Source: Synechococcus sp. LTW-R (GTDB lineage: Bacteria; Cyanobacteriota; Cyanobacteriia; PCC-6307; Cyanobiaceae). Taken from it: a stretch of DNA of 64,000 nucleotides. The stretch's first letter is position 1. Every line of letters starts with the position of its first letter. This document shows, one piece after another, positions 5,081 to 60,386 of this stretch. The notes below the pieces were generated by a model, which made no database searches, had not been told where the DNA came from, and was given only the letters and a program-made list of their open reading frames with translations. The stretch is from NCBI RefSeq assembly GCF_014217875.1, contig NZ_CP059060.1:62001-126000 (forward strand), read 5' to 3'. The translations under genes and the position numbers were made by a program.

Positions 5081-5103
5081 GGCCTGAAGCTGGATTGAAA
5101 AGT

Positions 5104-5174
5104 GGGCGATACTGGAATCGAACCAGTGACTCCTACCGTGTCAAGGTAGTGCTCTACCTCTGAGCTAATCGCCC
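5104..5174 (-). tRNA. tRNA-Val(GAC)
   Basis: Read on the minus strand the sequence folds as a cloverleaf: acceptor GGGCGAT pairs with ATCGCCC, the D arm contains AGCTCAGAGGTAGAGC, the anticodon stem-loop is CTACC-TTGACAC-GGTAG with anticodon GAC, and the T arm contains GGTTCGATTCC. The 3' CCA is not encoded. Confidence 0.95.
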
Positions 5175-51322: not shown

Positions 51323-51664
51323 TCAGTCCGGGATTTCGAGCTGGGATTGCTTCTGCCGCAGCTGCTGTTCCAGCCGATCGATGCGGCCCCGCAGTTCATC
51401 GACCTCCCGTTGCCGGGCCAGGCCGAGATCCTGCAGCAGGTGATCCAGGTTGCGCTCCACCTGCCGCTCGGTCTGCTTCTCGAGCTCGGGGTTCTCGCCG
51501 CGCAGGCTGGCGAGGACGTCATCGACCAAGGCACTGGCCTGACTGGGATCAAGGCGGCCACTGCTCACCCAGGCCTGGGTGACGCCCCGCAGGCGCTCGG
51601 CCACCAACGAGGTGGTGCCAAGTCCGCGGAAGAGCAGTTGTTGAAGGGTCCGGCTGGGATCCAT
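51323..51664 (-). CDS. Phasin-like coiled-coil protein, target gene of the integrative element
   Basis: A 113-residue helical protein (MDPSRTLQQLLFRGLGTTSL...) with a C-terminal heptad coiled coil (REVDELRGRIDRLEQQLRQK), similar to phasin-like/PhaF-type small proteins. The first 16 bases of the gene, including the ATG, are the left copy of a 16-bp direct repeat whose other copy is at 58857. So the coding sequence is intact, but its native upstream DNA has been replaced by element DNA. The new upstream sequence on the minus strand reads AAAGAAGTGTTATG, which still offers a weak ribosome site. Confidence 0.75.
   Translation of the reverse strand: MDPSRTLQQLLFRGLGTTSLVAERLRGVTQAWVSSGRLDPSQASALVDDVLASLRGENPELEKQTERQVERNLDHLLQDLGLARQREVDELRGRIDRLEQQLRQKQSQLEIPD
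51649..51664. repeat. attL-like 16-bp direct repeat
   Basis: TCCGGCTGGGATCCAT, identical to 58857-58872. It spans the start codon and first codons of the phasin-like gene. Flanking bases differ from the right copy, so the identity ends exactly here. Confidence 0.85.
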
Positions 51665-51704
51665 AACACTTCTTTACTAGCAGGTGATTTGAGCTGCTAC
51701 GGAG

Positions 51705-51737
51705 TGGTTTGAATTGGTTTGAACAGGGTGGTTTGAA
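51705..51737. repeat. Triple TGGTTTGAA repeat, possible recombinase arm sites
   Basis: Three direct copies of TGGTTTGAA at 51705-51713, 51715-51723 and 51729-51737. The same core appears at the right end as GTTTGAACAGGTTTGAAT (58792-58809), with the stretch GTTTGAACAGG shared by both ends. Inverted copies TTCAAACC occur at 51904-51911 and 51926-51933. The pattern fits arm-type binding sites of a tyrosine recombinase or its accessory factor. Confidence 0.55.
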
Positions 51738-52429
51738 TCAGCTCTGCTCGTGCCGTCTGTCTAGCCAGAACCAAGGCTCAAGCGCATCAACAGATCGGCA
51801 GTGATCGAAACGTTTGGATTGTTTATAGCGATACAAAGCTGGGTGCGTCCCGGCTTGGACCAGAACAAGTGAATGGTTCACAGGGACACACCGTTGATCG
51901 CCGTTCAAACCTTTTCTCGGCTTTGTTCAAACCCGCACGACTGTCCCGTTGCTGTGGCTGGTTCTTGAAGGTTTCTCGTCGGACAGCTCAACCGATCTCC
52001 GCCTAGTTAGACTGATCTCGTTGGGCAACGCTGACGCGCCTTGTAGCCGCCGTCAACAGCTCAAGGCTCTATCGCTCCGGCTGCGTCGGTCAAAGCCGTT
52101 ACAGCCGGTCTCAGCTGGTGATCAGGAGTTTTTGGAGTGGGTACCCGGTACGGGGACTGTGGCGTCCATGCACCTACGTAATACGGCTTCAGAAATTTGG
52201 GCCAGGAACCTCACTCAAGCCAAGGAAGAAAAGTGAAGCAGCTTGGTGGCGCGGGTGCTTTGGGAGCAGCCGAAACGACAAGCAAAAAGCCAGTCAGTCA
52301 CTAGGTCCAGCCAGTCTCAACCGGCTTTATTAGCGACAAAGTAGCGACAACGCTCCTGCACTCACTCGATTTATCCGTGCGGAGGAGCTGCGACCACGGC
52401 AACATCACTGCAACTACCCAACAGGGCTA
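51738..52429. other. Non-coding left region of the element
   Basis: About 690 bases with no ORF that I can support. A 95-codon plus-strand frame (51949-52236) has no recognisable content. It holds two inverted TTCAAACC copies (51904, 51926) and a TAGCGACAA pair (52331-52350) before the beta-barrel gene. The region probably contains the promoter of that gene and recombinase binding sites. Confidence 0.5.
52331..52350. repeat. TAGCGACAA direct repeat upstream of the beta-barrel gene
   Basis: TAGCGACAA at 52331-52339 and 52342-52350, an 11-base period (one helical turn) about 80 bases before the start of the beta-barrel gene. A helical-turn direct repeat in a promoter region suggests an operator, but nothing else supports this. 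Confidence 0.3.
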
Positions 52430-53380
52430 ATGCTGCGTCCTTTATGGATCGGGTTGGTGGCATCTGCATTGGCAGTCACCACCCTCCCTGCAAAAGCGGA
52501 TGGGTACGGCACAGCCAGTGACCTGGGTGTGATGAGCATTCAGCTCAAGGACATCGTCAAACCTCAAGTCGGCATCCAAGGTCAAACCCAAGCCGCTGGC
52601 ACGCCCAACCAAGCAGGTCTGGGTGGCTTCCTTCCACTGGTGGTCGGCAGCAACAGCGTCTTCTTTGCTGATGTCCTGGCGAATGCCAACTTCTCGGACT
52701 GGGGTAACAGCAGCAGCATCATCAACACCACCGTTGCTGGCACCACCATCTCCACCTCATCCCGCCTGGGCTATCGCTGGCTCAATGGTGACCGCAGTTG
52801 GATGTATGGACTGAATGCGGGCTATGACACCCGACCAATGAGCACGGGTCCCTCTGACACAGGTATCCCTGTTTATGCCTCACGCACCGCTTTCTTCCAG
52901 CAGGCGGCTGTCAATGCAGAAGCGGTGAGCGATAAGTGGGCATTCAATGCTTATGCGCTCATTCCAACGGGTGACACCGAGCAACAGCTCAACACCGTCT
53001 ATCAAGGCGGTGCACTGGACACCTATGGCTTAGATGCTGGTTACAACCTGACGCCAGGACTAAGAGCCTCTGTTGGTTACTACTACCAAAACGGCGATGC
53101 AGGCGATGCCGATGGCTCTGGCGTCTTGGGTCGCCTCGCCTATGCCATCAACAACGGACTAACGGTTGGCACCAACCTCTCTTATGACAGTGCCTTCAAG
53201 TCACGGTTTTCGGCTGACATCAAGTGGCGCTTCAATACGAATGGCGGTCCTGGCAAAGAAACACCGAAAACCAATGCCGCTGTTAATGCCCTAACATCAA
53301 CGCCTAGCAATAGGGATGTGCGGGTGCACGACCGAGTTTGCCTGACCTTAATTTGGTGGCCGTGTGTGTTAAGAAATTGA
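52430..53380 (+). CDS. Secreted outer-membrane beta-barrel protein (inverse-autotransporter-like)
   Basis: A 316-residue protein. A signal peptide (MLRPLWIGLVASALAVTTLPAKA) is followed by a beta-barrel with alternating aromatic/polar strands: SVFFADVLANANFSDWG, SRLGYRWLNGDRSWMYGLNA, WAFNAYALIPTGDTEQQLN, LRASVGYYYQNGDAGD and FSADIKWRF. This resembles the intimin/invasin-type barrel of large picocyanobacterial surface proteins. After the last strand the tail changes character (NRDVRVHDRVCLTLIWWPCVLRN), as if a longer passenger had been lost by a frameshift or deletion. Carried by the element. Confidence 0.7.
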   Translation: MLRPLWIGLVASALAVTTLPAKADGYGTASDLGVMSIQLKDIVKPQVGIQGQTQAAGTPNQAGLGGFLPLVVGSNSVFFADVLANANFSDWGNSSSIINTTVAGTTISTSSRLGYRWLNGDRSWMYGLNAGYDTRPMSTGPSDTGIPVYASRTAFFQQAAVNAEAVSDKWAFNAYALIPTGDTEQQLNTVYQGGALDTYGLDAGYNLTPGLRASVGYYYQNGDAGDADGSGVLGRLAYAINNGLTVGTNLSYDSAFKSRFSADIKWRFNTNGGPGKETPKTNAAVNALTSTPSNRDVRVHDRVCLTLIWWPCVLRN

Positions 53381-53407
53381 TGGGATATTTGTGTGAGTCT
53401 AGCCACC

Positions 53408-53437
53408 TAAAGCCCCTGTAAATGCAGGGGCTTTTTA
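53408..53437 (+). terminator. Terminator of the beta-barrel gene
   Basis: AAAGCCCCTG and CAGGGGCTTT form a perfect 10-base stem with a short TAAATG-type loop, followed by a T-rich stretch, 28 bases past the stop codon. Confidence 0.88.
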
Positions 53438-53498
53438 TTTCTTCAGTCACACCCAGAAGCCAATAAATCAGGCCCTATATCTAAGATTTCTATACTCT

Positions 53499-53693
53499 TC
53501 AATGAGGACGAGTTTGAGTTTTGAGCAGCGACACCAGCTGCTGCTGGCTACGAACAAACCGCTTTCGCTGAGGACTGTCGTAGTCCCCTTCAAGCATCAG
53601 GGTGGGGACGGTTTCCACCCACCCAACACCAGTCTCGAAGCTCTTAGACCAGCACAGCGCTGACGCAGTCGCTATGAGCGCAAACCTCTGTGG
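53499..53693 (-). pseudogene. Possible gene remnant, C-terminal part only
   Basis: 64 codons are open on the minus strand, closed by TGA at 53501-53499 and with a TAG immediately upstream; no good start codon lies in the N-terminal part. The translation has protein-like composition (GVGWVETVPTLMLEGDYD, then SPQRKRFVRSQQQLVSLL). I do not recognise the family. It may be the tail of a gene lost during element evolution, or chance. Confidence 0.3.
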
Positions 53694-53884
53694 CTAGTCA
53701 TCCCATGGAGGATTTTTTTTGGCTGGTCGGTGGTGGGTCGTTGACGACTGACTGCACTGAGAACCGCAGGCCGAGTGCTCAGTCCCACACACAAGGCTTA
53801 ATGGGTGACCAAAGACACGTCACGACTTCAGGCCTGGTCGCACTATCGATGCGAGACCTTCGAATGGGTTTCAAGGGAGAAACC

Positions 53885-53913
53885 GAGGCGGGTTGGCACC
53901 CGTCTCTTTTTTT
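53885..53913 (+). terminator. Strong terminator with no obvious upstream gene
   Basis: GAGGCGGGT and ACCCGTCTC pair over 9 positions (one G-U) around a TGGC loop, followed by seven T residues. No supported plus-strand gene precedes it; the nearest is the beta-barrel gene, which has its own terminator 450 bases upstream. The interval 53694-53884 could therefore encode a small RNA. The rest of 53440-54150 shows only weak frames on both strands. Confidence 0.65.
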
Positions 53914-54154
53914 GTCCGCTTGACCGCTACTGGGTTGCATCAGCAGGCGCTGCTGCCATTCCTGTTTCAGCTGGTCCAAGCGGGTGAGCGCGGCTGGGTT
54001 CATTGGAAGGTCGCCCAGTAACCGGCTAACGCTGGCACTAGATATGAGGCGAGTGGCTGCAAATGCCAGCGAATGGACATCCGGTATGGGGTAAATGCAG
54101 TCCTTGTGGGTACGTGAAGTGGGTTCGGAAATTTGTGTCACCAAAATCAGGCCA

Positions 54155-54180
54155 ACAAAAAACCGCCCTTTCGGGCGGCT
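54155..54180 (-). terminator. Terminator of the second beta-barrel gene
   Basis: On the minus strand AGCCGCCC, GAAA loop, GGGCGGTT then a T run. It lies 35 bases after the stop of the gene at 54216. Confidence 0.88.
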
Positions 54181-54215
54181 AGGGTTGATTTGGTGTGAAG
54201 ATATAGGAGATCAGA

Positions 54216-54989
54216 TCAGCTGCCGAAGCGGAAACGCACACCAGCGCGGAGGCCGAATGCATTCAGAGGCGTGTAGCTGATGCCTTTGATGGAGACGCCG
54301 GTGGAACCCTGGTAAGTACCTTCCAGGAAAACATCAGCCTTTTCGGAGGCTGCGTAAGCCACGCCTGCTTTGGCCTGATAGCCAAAAGCACCTGCGCTAC
54401 CGCCTTCAACATTCACAGGCTGAGTCGCCGTGATGCCACTGCCAGAAAGGGTTGCATTACCGGTCTGGGTGGGAACAGACACGTTGGTGTAGCCGAGGCC
54501 ACCACCGACATAAGGCGTGAACTTCGACTTGGTGTCAATGTCGTAGTAGCCGCTGACTAAAACACTGTTGGTGCTCACCGTGCCGGTGCCAGACAGTGTG
54601 AAGTTGTAAGGGAAGTTGGTGTAAGAGATGCCGTTCAGGGTTCCCGTCTCAGAACCGCTGCCGGTAATGTCCCCAACATTTGACCCTTTGTAGATGTAGG
54701 TCAACTCTGCACGCACATCGCCGAAGTCGTAGCCGACACCAGCCTCACCGGCGAAGCCAGCACCCAGGTCAAGCTTCGGTGTGTAAGTGCCAGAGAAAGT
54801 TTCGTCAGTGGTCCAGCTACCCGTGTAGCTCTTGGCGTTGTTACCGGTGCTGCCGGTCCAGGATGCGCCAGCACCCAGGGTTGCGTAAAAACCAGTTGCC
54901 TTAGCCGCAGACTCCTCTTGGGCGCGGACAGGTGCCGCAAAGGCGACAGCGGAGGCTGCAGCTGCAGCAAACAGAAGACGAAGCTTCAT
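54216..54989 (-). CDS. Outer-membrane beta-barrel protein (Opa/OmpA-like)
   Basis: A 257-residue protein with a signal peptide (MKLRLLFAAAAASAVAFAAPVRA) and an eight-strand-type barrel: GFYATLGAGASWTG, GAGFAGEAGVGYDFGDVRAE, KFTPYVGGGLGYTNVS, AFGYQAKAGVAYAASEKADV and a last strand GLRAGVRFRFGS. It matches the general pattern of OmpA/Opa-like porin-fold surface proteins. Loops are Gly/Ser/Thr-rich. It is monocistronic, with a ribosome site GAGGAA before the ATG and its own terminator. Cargo of the element, possibly changing surface or phage-receptor properties. Confidence 0.75.
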   Translation of the reverse strand: MKLRLLFAAAAASAVAFAAPVRAQEESAAKATGFYATLGAGASWTGSTGNNAKSYTGSWTTDETFSGTYTPKLDLGAGFAGEAGVGYDFGDVRAELTYIYKGSNVGDITGSGSETGTLNGISYTNFPYNFTLSGTGTVSTNSVLVSGYYDIDTKSKFTPYVGGGLGYTNVSVPTQTGNATLSGSGITATQPVNVEGGSAGAFGYQAKAGVAYAASEKADVFLEGTYQGSTGVSIKGISYTPLNAFGLRAGVRFRFGS

Positions 54990-55297
54990 TTCCTCACAAG
55001 GAAAAGCAGATTAATTTCATCAGCTACCTAGTCGCAAACCGAGATGAGCTGGACCACTACCTTTACCGGCCTGAGTTGCGATTTCGGCATAGCCATAAGC
55101 GGATTGACTTCGGCTTGGCTATTAAGGCAGCGCCAAATCCGAGCATCTTCTTCTCAGATCCTCTGTGCTGCAGTCGATCTGAGCTATCTGGAGGTGATAG
55201 ACCTTTGCTGTTGTGGATGATCTCTGTCTGGCCTACGGCGACTTTGTGTAGCCAGCTATACAAGTGTCACTAGTTGCTTGGTGCGTATGGCGGCGGC
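54990..55297. other. Intergenic region inside the element
   Basis: About 300 bases between the Opa-like gene and the small-gene cluster. It holds the likely promoter of the Opa-like gene. A 113-codon plus-strand frame overlaps that gene's start and has no protein-like features, so I see no gene here. Confidence 0.5.
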
Positions 55298-55516
55298 TCA
55301 TTGGCGGCCTCGTCCAAACCTTGATGACGGCCTCCGGATCCTCTCCAGACTCTCCCTAACCTCATCCAGCTGCCGCTGAACTTCCTGAGCCTGTGCGTTT
55401 TCCTGCTTAAACCTGGTGATCAGCTGCTCCTTGTCCTCAAGCGTTGGTGCTCTTCGTAGCTGTTGAAGCTGGTGGTTGCTGAATTGGGAGAGTAGTGATT
55501 GTGATTGGTTGTTCAT
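55298..55516 (-). CDS. Small coiled-coil protein of the element
   Basis: A 72-residue Gln/Glu/Arg-rich helical protein (MNNQSQSLLSQFSNHQLQQL...), with a likely coiled coil over residues ~25-60 and a basic tail RRPSSRFGRGRQ. It starts 8 bases after the 53-residue protein's stop and is the last gene of the recombinase-led minus-strand run. Function unknown. Confidence 0.55.
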   Translation of the reverse strand: MNNQSQSLLSQFSNHQLQQLRRAPTLEDKEQLITRFKQENAQAQEVQRQLDEVRESLERIRRPSSRFGRGRQ

Positions 55517-55524
55517 TTGTCTGA

Positions 55525-55686
55525 TTAATGGTTGTCGGATGTTGATTGGTTGAAATCAAGTTCAAGCTGAATTGGTTCTGTTGGAGCCGGTGAGGCTTGT
55601 GGTTCTTCGACCCATCCAACGTGGATGCTTCCGTTTTTGCTGATGAGGGTGAGTCGTTGGTTTGGTGTTGTTGTGTTGTTGTTCAT
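55525..55686 (-). CDS. 53-residue hypothetical protein of the element
   Basis: MNNNTTTPNQRLTLISKNGS begins a 53-residue protein whose core LTLISKNGSIHVGWVEE looks like short beta strands, followed by a Pro-rich and acidic end (PTEPIQLELDFNQSTSD). It fits exactly between neighbours with 10-base and 8-base gaps and ends at TAA 55527-55525, which supports it as real despite its size. Function unknown. Confidence 0.5.
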   Translation of the reverse strand: MNNNTTTPNQRLTLISKNGSIHVGWVEEPQASPAPTEPIQLELDFNQSTSDNH

Positions 55687-55696
55687 CTATTCGCAA

Positions 55697-56149
55697 TCAG
55701 TATTTGTTTTCAGGTTCAAAGCTCAGTGCGTTCTTGAATGCTGGTTCCACAATGTGAAAGGACAGGAAGCAATTGCCATACTCTTGGACTTGGACATGCC
55801 CGACAACCTGCACAAACTCAGGGATAAAAAGATCATCTCTGTCTATTCGCCCAAGTAGACCCTCCAGCTTTGGCTTGAATAAGGATTCAAAAAGCAGGCA
55901 GTCATCCTTGATCAACCGGTCTTTGAAACCTTTAGATCGGGTCTCAAAATCAAAGTCTGGGTTTGAGGTGAACTGTTGAGCATGAAGCTCTTTGGCTTGT
56001 CTCGCCTCCCCCTCAATCTCATCAAAGACTGATGGAGATTCCGGCATCAAGCTGAGCCTGTAGATCTTGTTACCGGTCAGCTTTTCTGTCATTGGGTCAA
56101 TGACGCTGGCATCAAGGATGTACCCCTTAGTTCTTATTGGTGTTTTCAT
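55697..56149 (-). CDS. 150-residue hypothetical protein of the element
   Basis: A soluble protein beginning MKTPIRTKGYILDASVIDPM. It is rich in beta-strand-like and acidic segments (KIYRLSLMPESPSVFDEIEG; FVQVVGHVQVQEYGNCFLSF). The beta-rich ends around a helical middle would suit an OB-like nucleic acid-binding fold, but this is a weak inference. ATG 56149 is preferred over GTG 56152. Its start overlaps the end of the upstream small gene by 23 bases. Confidence 0.6.
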   Translation of the reverse strand: MKTPIRTKGYILDASVIDPMTEKLTGNKIYRLSLMPESPSVFDEIEGEARQAKELHAQQFTSNPDFDFETRSKGFKDRLIKDDCLLFESLFKPKLEGLLGRIDRDDLFIPEFVQVVGHVQVQEYGNCFLSFHIVEPAFKNALSFEPENKY

Positions 56150-56345
56150 CACTTAAGCCAGGGTGCATTGGATCTTTCGGTAGACCCGCGTGGTGGAACT
56201 GTCTGAATGCATAGACACCAAGCATGTACAGCTCGTGCCGTAGGAACCGTTCTTTGACACCATGACGCTCCAGCTTTGCGATGGAACGACACTTAGTGTT
56301 AATCCAGCTCTGATCTTTTGGAGTTAATCCGTTGTAGGTGTGCAT
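56127..56345 (-). CDS. 72-residue hypothetical protein of the element
   Basis: A small basic protein (MHTYNGLTPKDQSWINTKCR...) with a helical middle (SIAKLERHGVKERFLRHELY) and a polar tail. It is preceded by 194 bases with no gene, which could contain a promoter. Overlaps the next gene by 23 bases. Size and position would suit an excisionase or regulator, but no motif proves this. Confidence 0.5.
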   Translation of the reverse strand: MHTYNGLTPKDQSWINTKCRSIAKLERHGVKERFLRHELYMLGVYAFRQFHHAGLPKDPMHPGLSDENTNKN

Positions 56346-56539
56346 ATGTCTGATGTGAGAGTATTCATGATTAAGGGTTCAACGCCTGTTATTACCGGTT
56401 GATACTGTTTCAGCTGTCGTTGAATCCTTTAGTAGTTCGACTATCCAATCGTTCGCTGCGCTCACTCTTGGAGTCTCACTACTGTCTGAGGGAGGCTTTC
56501 TCCCTGTGTACGTGAGGGATTGCTAGTGAGTTGTTGTCT

Positions 56540-57343
56540 TTAAATAGATTCTGCGTCGTTTTGTGGTAGGCGACCTAATGCCTCAGTTGTGGTCTCCAGC
56601 ATCCGTGTCCAGATCTCCCACTCTTGTGTGTTCTGCTTTTCAGCTTCTTCCAATCGAGCCAGCTTGTTCAGGCATTTACGCCTGTAGAGCTGCTCAATTT
56701 CGTTCAGCTCCTCTTCATCCCACATCTCTTCGGGGATTCCTTTGATGTGGATAAAGCGATCACCAACATCCAAGAACTTTCCACTTGGTTTCCAGCGGCT
56801 AGTTCGGATGACCTTTTGAGCTGAATCCTCAGCTGCTTGGTTCTGAGCAGCTTCCTTAGCTTTCGCCAGCTGAGTCTGGGTAAGAGGCGTGTATCGAAGG
56901 ATCAGAAACTGGATGATCCGAGCTTTTGACTGGCCAATGGCGGTCTTGTGGCACTCAAGCTTTTTCCATGCAGTGCTTGTGATCGAGTAATTGATCTGCC
57001 TGGAACCTGTCTCGCCTTTGTATTTGACCGTTCGTTCTTCAGGCTCAAGCAGGTGAGAGGGCCAGTGGTACCTCTCCGTTCTGCTCATGCTTGAGCTGCA
57101 GCTGGCATAGCCAGGGATGCCTTGGATGATCATCCGGGTCAGCATTTCCCACCGGGTTATTCCGGCTTGAATGGCTAGCTGAGCTAGTCGGTCAAATGCT
57201 TCTTGACTGACATTGACCTTCAGTGGCTTCCTTGTTGCGCGAACGCCTGGATCTTTGCCTTCACGGGGAACAAGCCTAAAGTCCTTTTCTGAATCCTTTT
57301 TACGTTTTAGGTATTGACGCTGGTGTTTGGAATGTTTCCGCAT
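56540..57343 (-). CDS. Tandem ribbon-helix-helix-like DNA-binding protein of the element
   Basis: A 267-residue protein. The basic N-terminus (MRKHSKHQRQYLKRKKDSEK) is followed by two similar strand-helix-helix segments: KPLKVNVSQEAFDRLAQLAI with GITRWEMLTRMIIQGI, and SRQINYSITSTAWKKLECHK with GQSKARIIQFLILRY. Each resembles the ribbon-helix-helix pattern (short strand, helix, turn, helix), so one chain may form a pseudodimer. The C-terminal ~60 residues are acidic and helical (WDEEELNEIEQLYRR). It lies 30 bases after the recombinase gene and is probably coexpressed with it. A regulator or recombination directionality role is inference. Confidence 0.6.
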   Translation of the reverse strand: MRKHSKHQRQYLKRKKDSEKDFRLVPREGKDPGVRATRKPLKVNVSQEAFDRLAQLAIQAGITRWEMLTRMIIQGIPGYASCSSSMSRTERYHWPSHLLEPEERTVKYKGETGSRQINYSITSTAWKKLECHKTAIGQSKARIIQFLILRYTPLTQTQLAKAKEAAQNQAAEDSAQKVIRTSRWKPSGKFLDVGDRFIHIKGIPEEMWDEEELNEIEQLYRRKCLNKLARLEEAEKQNTQEWEIWTRMLETTTEALGRLPQNDAESI

Positions 57344-57373
57344 GACAGTTAATGATTGTGGATTGATCCGGCT

Positions 57374-58774
57374 TTACTCATCTGCGAATGTGTGTGTTCT
57401 GATTCTTAATTGAGAGTTCGTTTTTGTGTGCTCTCTATTGAAGATCGGAACTCGTTTCTGCTTTTCATCTGGAAGCTCAAGGATTGTCAGCTCACGGCTC
57501 CTGCTTCGTACGTCGGATCTGTCGTAATACCTATTCATGGTCTTAATGTCATGTCCGCTGATACGTGCGACCAAGTAAGCATCGACGCCTCTAGATAAAT
57601 GATTCTCGATGAATGTTGATCGCAGTGAGTAGATGGTGTATGGCTTTTCGCTAAAGCGGTTGCCGACCAACCTTTCTTGAGCTGCATCAATAGTCTTGCG
57701 CCACATGTAGTAGTAGCTGGCTGATGAATAAGGCAGCTTGTCGGCTTCAGGCTTTCCGAAAACGTAGTCATTGGGTCCGTATCTCGGGATGCCATGTTTG
57801 TCGCAGTAGGTGTCCTGAAAAGCTTTCCAGTGCAGCAGACGTGTGCTTGTTCGGCTCCAGCACGGGACTTCTCTGGGTGTTCCAGTTTTTGTTTCACGTA
57901 TGAACAGGTAGCAGATGTATCGGGATTCATTGCCGTCGGTAACTTCGACAAGGTCAACGTCTTTCCACTTCAGTTTCCGCAGTTCAATCGGTCTGCAGCC
58001 GCTCGACTTCGCGACATAGGTAAAGCACCACCAAAGCTGGCGCCAGTAGTGGTGGCGATGGTTGTCAAAGGTTGTTGATTCTTTTACTTGCTTTCTGATC
58101 TCCCTGTTGATTGTGAGCCAGTCAGCAGCGTTGATGGACGGGTTCGCGTTCAGATCGCCCATCGAGATCTTGATCTTGGGGACGAAGTCGGTGTCGAACA
58201 GGACTTCTGCGTCCACAAGCTTTCGCCTTCCAAGCCAGTTCTTGATGAACTGTGAAATTGCCTTGAGTTCCTTTTTGATCGTTTGCTTTGACTTGCCGCG
58301 CCTGTAGTACGGGTACCGCTCCAGGAAGGTGTTGTTGATCTGGTCGCAGAAGGTCACCTCTTGGAAATCGAGGTATCCAATGAAGTCCTTGCGTAGCGAC
58401 CTGGCTTTACGGCTGAAGCTTTCTTCTCCTATCCGGTTGGTGAGGACCTTCTCCTTTTCGCCCTGGAGGAATCGTTCCAGTTCTTCACGGACTGGAACGC
58501 GCTGCCGTTTGGCCGGTTTGTAGCTGTCTTGGGTGGCTGCTCTGCGCGGTTTGCTGGCTGCTGGAGGGTTGGCGATGCCATCGACGGCTGCGACGTACGC
58601 ATCCAGGCAACTGGCTTCAGCTTCCGCCTGGTTGGTCGCCCCGGGAACCAGTCGAACTACGTATGACTTAGTTCCTGGCTTCAGGACCCTGATGAACCAC
58701 TTGGTTGGATCCTTGCCGTAGCAGTAGATGGTTGCCTTGCCTCCAAGCACCTTTGCCTTGGTGTGGATGGTCAT
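57374..58774 (-). CDS. int: Tyrosine recombinase (phage-type integrase)
   Basis: A 466-residue site-specific recombinase. The catalytic set is R261 in GCRPIELRKLKW, K296 in RETKTGTPR, R385 in YSLRSTFIE, H408 in SGHDIKTMN and nucleophile Y417 in RYYDR. The usual HxxR box has Tyr382 in place of His. An N-terminal arm-binding domain (residues ~1-70) and a core-binding domain (~90-220) precede the catalytic part. It reads inward from the right end, 83 bases from the right 16-bp repeat, and has lower GC than its flanks. It should catalyse integration of this element. Confidence 0.9.
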   Translation of the reverse strand: MTIHTKAKVLGGKATIYCYGKDPTKWFIRVLKPGTKSYVVRLVPGATNQAEAEASCLDAYVAAVDGIANPPAASKPRRAATQDSYKPAKRQRVPVREELERFLQGEKEKVLTNRIGEESFSRKARSLRKDFIGYLDFQEVTFCDQINNTFLERYPYYRRGKSKQTIKKELKAISQFIKNWLGRRKLVDAEVLFDTDFVPKIKISMGDLNANPSINAADWLTINREIRKQVKESTTFDNHRHHYWRQLWWCFTYVAKSSGCRPIELRKLKWKDVDLVEVTDGNESRYICYLFIRETKTGTPREVPCWSRTSTRLLHWKAFQDTYCDKHGIPRYGPNDYVFGKPEADKLPYSSASYYYMWRKTIDAAQERLVGNRFSEKPYTIYSLRSTFIENHLSRGVDAYLVARISGHDIKTMNRYYDRSDVRSRSRELTILELPDEKQKRVPIFNREHTKTNSQLRIRTHTFADE

Positions 58775-58791
58775 GGCTCGGTGGTCTAAGA

Positions 58792-58809
58792 GTTTGAACA
58801 GGTTTGAAT
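58792..58809. repeat. GTTTGAACAGGTTTGAAT, possible right arm sites
   Basis: Two GTTTGAA copies in direct orientation between the recombinase start and the right 16-bp repeat. GTTTGAACAGG occurs identically at the left end (51717-51727). A match at both ends of the element supports a recombinase-binding role. Confidence 0.5.
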
Positions 58810-58856
58810 GCCTGTTGCAACCATCCTAAAAGCGTGTGAGAGCTAGTGATAGGAGA

Positions 58857-58872
58857 TCCGGCTGGGATCCAT
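58857..58872. repeat. attR-like 16-bp direct repeat
   Basis: TCCGGCTGGGATCCAT, identical to 51649-51664. It marks the right boundary of the element; the following DNA returns to the high GC of the core genome and runs into lnt. Confidence 0.85.
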
Positions 58873-58925
58873 GAACCCGCGAAGGTGCGCTGTCTGCACC
58901 ATGACGCTCTTTAGGGTCGGTGGCC

Positions 58926-60386
58926 ATGGCAGAGAACCGGCGACTGGTCTGGATTGGCGCCCTGCTGGCAGGGCTGCTCGCCGGTGCGGCCTTGCCTCCT
59001 TTGGGCGCGCCGCCCCTGCTCTGGCTCGCGCTGGTGCCGCTTTGGGCCTTGGGGCCAGGGCCGGCGGCCCTTTGGGCTGGTGCCGCGGTCTTGCTCAGCC
59101 ATCGCTGGTTGCTCTGGTTGCACCCCCTCGATTGGATCGGGGTGCCCCTTCCCTGGAGCCTGCCGCTCTGTCTCCTGCTCTACGTGGCCTTGGGGCTACT
59201 GGGTGCGGGCTTGGTCTCCCTCTGGCGGGGCCTTGTCGGGCGTCTGGGGGCCGGCCGTTGGTCCGTGGCGCTGTTGGGCTCTGCGCTCTGGGGCCTGGGC
59301 GAGGTCTGGATGGCCAAGGGGCCGTTGTTTTGGCTGGGGCTGGGTTCGGTGGCCCTGCCCGGTGACCGCGCCTTGGCGGGCCTGGCCCAGTGGGTCGGTG
59401 CTGGCGGGCTGGCGGCCGTGCAGTTGTTGCTGGCCTGGGGGCTCTGGCGCCTGCTGGCCGCTTGGTGGGAGGGCCGGCGGGGGCTCTGGCGCGGTGGTCT
59501 GGCTTGGCTGTTGGCGGTGGCGTTGCTCCATGGCCTCGGCTGGCAGCAGCTCCAGCGCAGCGCCCTGGCTGATCCGGCGGCTCCCTGGTTGTCGGTGCTG
59601 GTGCTTCAGCCCGATATCCCGACCCGGGAGAAGTTCAGTTGGACCCAGCAGCGGGCCCTGGAGCGCCGCTTGCGGCAGGCCCAGGCGGAGGCGGAGGCCC
59701 GGGGCGCGGAGCTGTTGGTGTTGCCGGAGGGTGCGTTGGCCCTAGGGCAGGGGCTGCCTGCGCCAGGGGCGGTCGAGGTACTCAGCGGTGGCTTCCGCCA
59801 GGAGGAGATTGTGCTGCGCAGCAGTGTTCTGCGCTTTCCCCCGGGGCAGCTGGAGGCGAACGGTGCGATCGATAAGCACCGGCTGGTGCCTCTGGGGGAA
59901 TGGGTCCCCGGTGGCTCCCTGTTGCGTTGGGCGGGATTGTCCGCGGTCGGCGGCGTGGAGCCTGGGCCGGAGTCGCGGTTGCTGCGGCGCCCGGCGGGTG
60001 ATCTGGCCGTCGCCATTTGCTACGAGATCGCCGATGGGGCGGGCCTGATCGGTGCGGCGCAGGCTGGGGCCGGCTGGATCCTGGCTAGCGCCAACCTGGA
60101 CCCCTATCCGCGGCTGTTGCAGCAACAGTTCCAGGCCCTCTCCCAGTTGCGGGCAATCGAGGCCAGTCGCTGGTTGGTGAGTGCGGCCAACAGTGGGCCG
60201 AGCTTGGTGGTGCAGCCCGATGGGGCGCTGGGGGTATCCCTCGCCCCGATGCAGCCGGGGACGCTGCTGGTGCGACTGCAACTCCGTTCAGGCGGGACCC
60301 CGTATGGCCGCCTCGGGGAATGGCCGCTGCTGCTCGCCGCCGCCGGGGGCTTCGTCGCAAGCCGGTCTCGCATGAGACAATCTTGA
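58926..60386 (+). CDS. lnt: Apolipoprotein N-acyltransferase Lnt
   Basis: A 486-residue inner-membrane enzyme that adds the third acyl chain to lipoproteins. The N-terminal half has about six hydrophobic helices; the C-terminal half is a nitrilase domain with the Glu in VLPEGALAL, the Lys in DKHRLVPLGEWVP and the catalytic Cys in AICYEIADG. ATG 58926 is preferred over GTG 58920. Without the element its start would be divergent from and close to the phasin-like gene. Confidence 0.92.
   Translation: MAENRRLVWIGALLAGLLAGAALPPLGAPPLLWLALVPLWALGPGPAALWAGAAVLLSHRWLLWLHPLDWIGVPLPWSLPLCLLLYVALGLLGAGLVSLWRGLVGRLGAGRWSVALLGSALWGLGEVWMAKGPLFWLGLGSVALPGDRALAGLAQWVGAGGLAAVQLLLAWGLWRLLAAWWEGRRGLWRGGLAWLLAVALLHGLGWQQLQRSALADPAAPWLSVLVLQPDIPTREKFSWTQQRALERRLRQAQAEAEARGAELLVLPEGALALGQGLPAPGAVEVLSGGFRQEEIVLRSSVLRFPPGQLEANGAIDKHRLVPLGEWVPGGSLLRWAGLSAVGGVEPGPESRLLRRPAGDLAVAICYEIADGAGLIGAAQAGAGWILASANLDPYPRLLQQQFQALSQLRAIEASRWLVSAANSGPSLVVQPDGALGVSLAPMQPGTLLVRLQLRSGGTPYGRLGEWPLLLAAAGGFVASRSRMRQS

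Follow-up and report, generated by a model that had tools for sequence, protein, structure and literature searches.

In the window (the whole 64-kb stretch of DNA analysed here, from the genome with the handle G000, presumably that of a Cyanobium-like picocyanobacterium), a gene for a phasin-like protein and an lnt-like gene flank an element bounded by two exact copies of a 16-bp sequence, TCCGGCTGGGATCCAT, which lie 7208 bp apart from start to start (Table 1); the only other site like it in the window has three mismatches. The left copy carries the start of the phasin-like gene, and an intact tyrosine recombinase gene (PF00589) sits at the other end of the element. This recombinase gene, the directly repeated cores and a relative whose site is uninterrupted together point to a tyrosine-recombinase integrative element.

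Table 1. Features of the element and its surroundings, in window coordinates
Feature	Position	Strand	Evidence and remarks
Phasin-like protein, target gene, 113 aa	51323..51664	-	PF05597 27.3 bits, just under the cut-off of 28.8; orthologues
Left attachment core	51649..51664	-	ATGGATCCCAGCCGGA, the phasin-like gene from its ATG through codon 5; exact match and reading frame
Integrated element, 7192 bp	51665..58856	.	Between the two cores
Element-supplied leader of the phasin-like gene	51665..51700	-	Ends CTAGTAAAGAAGTGTT before the ATG; in G020, CCACTAAAGAAGTGAT
Three TTCAAACC repeats, left end	51706..51737	-	Candidate arm-type recombinase sites
Two more TTCAAACC repeats	51904..51933	+	
316-aa protein (cargo)	52430..53380	+	No family match; by eye, the N terminus is signal-like
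Outer-membrane beta-barrel protein (cargo)	54216..54989	-	PF01617 8.1e-9
72-aa protein, coiled-coil-like by eye	55298..55516	-	Close homologue in the second element (L073) of the same genome; translations compared by eye
267-aa protein	56540..57343	-	Weakly like RepA/RepB copy-number regulators, below cut-off (PF10723 0.0061; NF010256 0.00041)
Tyrosine recombinase, 466 aa	57374..58774	-	PF00589 2.2e-8, 34.5 bits (cut-off 27.1); phrog_1 1.6e-26
Right-end TTCAAAC (58792) and TTCAAACC (58801)	58792..58808	-	Between core and integrase start
Right attachment core	58857..58872	-	Same 16-bp sequence; the displaced native 5' region precedes it on the minus strand; outer flank matches the empty site of G018
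Native intergenic DNA of the phasin-like gene and lnt	58873..58919	.	On the minus strand it now precedes the integrase; matches G018
lnt-like gene (apolipoprotein N-acyltransferase)	58920..60386	+	PF00795 6.9e-9; LNT_N below cut-off only; synteny

Element, empty site and start of the phasin-like gene

The GC content (1-kb windows) is 0.46-0.57 between the cores and 0.61-0.72 outside them, and AAAGAAGTGTTATG gives one match, at 51675-51662 on the minus strand, where 0.06 is expected with up to two mismatches. An exact 16-bp repeat alone proves little here, because sixteen 16-mers, several of them overlapping and the core among them, recur on the plus strand of this GC-rich window; the same recurrence speaks for the reading that the repeat arose by chance, or as the target duplication of a transposon, with no site-specific element involved. 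What lifts the core pair above chance is the drop in GC content, the nearby integrase ATG, the uninterrupted empty site and the clustering of TTCAAACC words, of which there are six in the 64 kb, 6/6 within about 270 bp of the element ends, a placement that would fit arm-type sites of tyrosine recombinases. A random transposon is further contradicted by the recurrence of such cores at other targets, and we regard an accidental or transposon-made repeat as extremely improbable.

The residues R261, K296, YxxR385, H408 and Y417 of the window recombinase, which we take to be catalytic, are all present in alignments, and the protein forms a long isolated branch with no firm place in a tree of 18 integrases. 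No virion or packaging genes were found inside the element; the PHROGs scan, which took in eight element proteins and set the smaller open reading frames aside, assigned a family of known function to the integrase only. A search of viral contigs for relatives of this integrase yielded one stretch that fitted a pattern and none that was confirmed.

The insertion site is uninterrupted in G018, one of the nearest relatives: the joined window flanks match it over 416 bp at 95% identity and with 0 gaps. When window and G018 are compared directly, the two blocks that match share 20 bp, which fall on the core. In the window, the 90 bases that precede the phasin-like ATG in G018 lie beyond the right core. 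Integration thus keeps the coding sequence from the ATG and replaces all DNA upstream of it, so that the G018 comparison bears out the earlier note both in placing the core on the ATG and first codons with the frame kept and in proposing that native upstream DNA, here displaced to the far end, gives way to element DNA. Insertion at a start codon with replacement of the leader, by a 7.2-kb element with its own tyrosine recombinase, is very likely. In element-free strains lnt is the divergent neighbour of the phasin-like gene (in G018 the phasin ATG and the lnt start are about 47 bp apart), and it is found close on the other side in 25 of 27 genus and family loci, the exceptions being the window's genome and G020. 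Since its start lies so close to the phasin ATG, lnt also loses its own upstream DNA beyond the core. Between the two genes, a CCATGG-containing stretch (TAGGAAGCGCCATGGTTTG-like) appears by eye to be conserved in most of the genus (L002, L005-L024); it is possibly a regulatory site of the divergent pair and would then have been displaced by the element.

The phasin-like gene is present in 51 of the 60 genomes searched (the window's own counted), including 23 of 24 other members of the genus. Alignments with orthologues begin at residue 1 in 17 cases and at residues 2-5 in 6 of 23 (other families of the class, where 23 of 23 match). Among 25 element-free loci, 8 are without any other in-frame start codon between this Met and the upstream stop and 11 without another ATG in that stretch, while an upstream in-frame ATG occurs, at varying places, in 14. 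In both inserted strains (the window's and G020) an in-frame stop lies four codons upstream of the Met. From the orthologue alignments and the scan for start codons we therefore take the shared Met as the start of the gene. The earlier note had placed the start at this ATG, and the orthologues support it; the placement is less secure in G018 and G023, the nearest relatives, where an in-frame ATG occurs 10 codons upstream and a slightly longer native protein is possible in their clade, as judged from sequence.

At the same phasin ATG, G020 carries about 3 kb of unrelated DNA; its junction with the gene reads ATATCACTTCTTTAGT, against ATAACACTTCTTTACT in the window. This insert yielded no integrase, and the 20 kb read yielded no second core within three mismatches; the insert appears to be what remains of a further element with this specificity. 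With up to two mismatches, the attL pattern occurs in 5 of 400 family genomes (exactly in G000 and G020, with two mismatches in three others), and the reversed-pattern control gave two matches. The G020 insert (L031 8340-11330) also encodes a psbA-type protein (TIGR01151, 630.6 bits) reading SEGMPLG, where D1 usually reads SDGMPLG, and a 260-aa membrane protein that is sterol desaturase-like by eye and has no NCBIfam match.

Start codons and other targets of related integrases

The genome of the window contains a second element, whose recombinase is 32% identical to that of the first and whose 20-bp core, ATGGCCTACTTCACCTGGAA, begins at the ATG of a gene for an 80-aa protein, downstream of an mraY-like gene (named by eye). 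The site is uninterrupted in G018 and has a native-type leader in G012, and element-type leaders precede this ATG in 4 of the 23 genomes that have the gene (G000, G020, G023 and G003). Judged by coordinates, the inserts measure roughly 1.9 kb in G020, 1.2 kb in G023 and 0.5 kb in G003, and in these three no integrase of the window's family was found. The word ATACCAAC occurs five times in 20 kb, 5/5 inside the second element (L073), as candidate arm sites, and similar words were seen by eye beside the integrase starts of related elements.

A further target is dapF, which is needed for cell-wall synthesis. G028 and G244 belong to another genus, and their integrases, which share 37 and 36% identity with the window integrase, stand beside the host 5' region of dapF. 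A core, ATGCTGCAGTTCAGCAAA, adjoins the integrase in both; its 18 bases recur unchanged at the dapF end of G028 and with one mismatch at that of G244. A pattern for dapF matched in 31 of 34 genomes, and loci were taken from 30. The distance from the hfq match to the dapF match is 33-34 bp in 20 of these 30 loci (hand count), 254 bp in G336 and 4-14 kb in five (G252, G225, G260, G316 and G311); the loci of G028 and G244 are split between contigs, and those of G306 and G296 do not lend themselves to judgement. The new leaders bring ATG, GTG or TTG starts to dapF and alter codons 2-3 in several cases. In that genus the dapF start is an insertion hotspot (L198, L202, L204, L206, L210, L211, L214, L223 and L225). 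The recombinases at dapF in G252 and G260 are of a different type (PF00589, with a DUF6538 match below cut-off), and the matches listed in the search with the window integrase include none at these two places; at least two recombinase types thus use the dapF start codon.

In G209 an element lies at the start of a GST gene, for which G197 has the empty site. Here the identity begins two bases before the ATG, and the element version (ATGACACTAACC) and the native version (ATGACTCTCACC) differ in codons 2-3 only synonymously. The weakest case is a hydrolase gene in G020 (L081), since the longest word common to both ends has nine bases, the integrase has no Pfam match at E 0.001, yet matches the window integrase at 4.9e-57, and the near-core, TGTGTCGRGYTT at a GTG start, was read by eye. 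Relatives of the integrase also occur at 3' ends: they adjoin the 3' end of rpsD in at least five genomes (by the orientation of the neighbour), and other apparent 3'-end targets are a DUF3611-like gene and a gene convergent to a moeB-like gene (both named by eye). The evidence for these 3'-end assignments is the direction in which the neighbouring gene points, joined in G156 by a 23-of-24 repeat, and the integrase loci of G189, G197, G166, G163, G321 and G225 have targets that stand outside this tally of 5' and 3' ends. Targets at 5' ends are therefore part of what this integrase group uses and not its rule. That the start-codon target, which the earlier note set against the usual tRNA and 3'-end targets, is a one-off oddity finds no support: such a target recurs at the 80-aa gene, dapF, GST and, more weakly, the hydrolase, and has published counterparts in SXT/prfC, the dusA islands and SpyCI/mutL.

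Seven recombinases read GMSPEE where the other readable members have G-x-R-P: those of the second element of G000 and of G028, G244, G189, G197, G321 and G225 (L073, L070, L071, L074, L075, L079 and L086, respectively). They form a supported clade of seven in the 18-member tree. The Arg of the G-x-R-P motif is presumably the first catalytic Arg, and, if the alignment holds, this clade would be without it and have Ser in its place. Three of the seven sit at sharp cores and so may be active.

How the cores come to coincide with start codons can be read in two ways. The recombinase may simply recognise a sequence, the match to the start codon having no adaptive meaning; any attB within a gene has to lie at some position, and this group of integrases also has apparent 3'-end targets. 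Such indifference sits poorly with an identity that begins exactly at the A of the ATG in three targets (the phasin-like gene, the 80-aa gene and dapF in G028) and two bases before it in GST, with the restriction of the changes in element GST codons 2-3 to synonymous ones, and with the other dapF leaders, which alter codons 2-3 but keep a start codon; we consider it improbable. The reading we prefer is that an attP carrying the ATG and first codons of the target recombined with the start of the phasin-like gene, and that the stretch of identity begins at the ATG or directly beside it since a working start has to be restored by the element, while the DNA upstream would be free to diverge.

Leaders and a possible exchange of promoters

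At the phasin-like, 80-aa and dapF (G028 and G244) sites the order is the same: host 5' region, core ATG, integrase, with the body of the host gene at the other end, behind the element leader. The core ATG precedes the integrase start by 98 nt at the phasin-like gene, 94 nt at the 80-aa gene, and 102 and 101 nt at dapF in G028 and G244; the corresponding distance is 82 nt in G252, while in G260 it comes to 63 nt with one choice of start and 144 nt with the other. A displaced host 5' region 94-102 nt before the integrases at the phasin, 80-aa and dapF sites suggests a two-way exchange of promoters between host gene and integrase, which we put forward tentatively, as somewhat short of an even chance. 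The GST and hydrolase elements have the reverse orientation, with the gene body beside the integrase, so that promoter capture by the integrase is not general. In the proposed exchange, the phasin-like gene would be transcribed and translated from the element leader, integrase expression would draw in part on the displaced host 5' region that now lies 98 nt ahead of it, and in the excised circle the element leader would come to precede the integrase.

A consensus scan found no sigma-70-like promoter in 51600-52450 (the element leader) or 58700-59000 (the displaced region). As to translation, the anti-SD energies of the window and G020 leaders are -1.4 kcal/mol each, within the range of +1.2 to -6.3 of 25 native phasin loci; at the 80-aa gene four element leaders give -5.8 to -6.1 vs -6.3 to +2.2 for 20 native ones, and at GST the element leader gives -9.3 vs -2.4 for the native one. 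Random 20-mers of the window average -3.2, with the lowest 5% under -8.2, and against this distribution only the GST leader stands out. That the element supplies a strong ribosome site as a general rule is rejected by these energies. An effect of the insertion on expression of the host gene, as the earlier note suggested, is conjectural.

The lack of a promoter-like site in the scanned leader and the weak SD are what would be expected if insertion were an off switch, the gene being cut from its promoter by an element that brings none and remaining silent or weakly expressed until excision, in the manner of SpyCI at mutL, which provides a precedent. Several observations run counter to this: the frame and start are intact, two strains have a similar element end at the gene, and several genomes carry such insertions at dapF, where, the gene being needed for the cell wall, leaders of this general kind must presumably work. 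The promoter scan itself carries less weight because cyanobacterial promoters often escape the strict sigma-70 consensus. We consider an off switch unlikely and prefer the reading in which the replaced leader would leave the gene working.

Taken to its full extent, leader replacement would define a whole class of picocyanobacterial elements at start codons, each bringing the opening codons of its target gene and trading promoters with it. The element leader would run the host gene (dapF included) and the host promoter region the integrase, which would couple the element's mobility to how its host gene is regulated; two or more unlike types of recombinase would have converged on the dapF start, and one clade would be functional despite having Ser at the position of the first catalytic Arg. 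As a whole, this proposition is rather doubtful. The inserted sites form, at defined genes of what are presumably picocyanobacteria, a natural set of replaced leaders for which there are related strains both carrying and lacking the element, and, if the exchange runs both ways, mobile elements would plug into host regulation while leaving the protein unchanged. Start-codon attB sites could also serve as natural landing pads that place genes under chosen leaders; PMC12884075 describes engineering with an integrase whose attB is native to Synechococcus elongatus.

Comparison with known systems

Small integrase-bearing islands of picocyanobacteria include the tycheposons of Prochlorococcus, which lie at tRNA genes. 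The window element differs from these in its position at the start of a protein gene, and the only tRNA of the window is at 5102-5174. SXT is a conjugative element that resembles the window element in having a 5'-end target, but alters the N terminus there. As cited in PMC8409611, SXT in prfC brings the gene a new promoter and N terminus. In the dusA islands and prophages, integrases drive insertion at the 5' end of the gene, the native 5' region is displaced and the frame is restored (PMC4482086; PMC8409611), and for IMEVchUSA3 the new promoter was shown by a lacZ fusion (PMC8409611). SpyCI, a phage-like island in mutL of Streptococcus pyogenes, sits at the 5' end of the gene and controls its expression (PMC3430984; PMC4689407; PMC4129442); growth-phase excision has been shown and one variant supplies a promoter (PMC3430984). 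Among the helper-embedded PICIs (PMC10111431), one clade of integrases returns repeatedly to a single class of sites in protein genes, late genes of prophages, whereas the window element uses the start codon of a host gene.

Targeting of 5' ends is itself already known, with SXT/prfC, the dusA islands and SpyCI/mutL as precedents; in the titles and abstract openings of the open-access literature, which were partially covered, we found no report of a start-codon target in cyanobacteria or of dapF as a target. With SpyCI the window element shares a site at the 5' end of a gene, but its target is phasin-like rather than mutL. Like the dusA islands, it has its core where a protein gene begins, restores the reading frame and displaces the native 5' region. 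Those islands occupy other hosts and another target, to which they give a new, altered N terminus, whereas the window element lies in neither dusA nor prfC and leaves the phasin-like protein unchanged from its ATG, and its recombinase group, unlike the dusA islands, uses several different genes.
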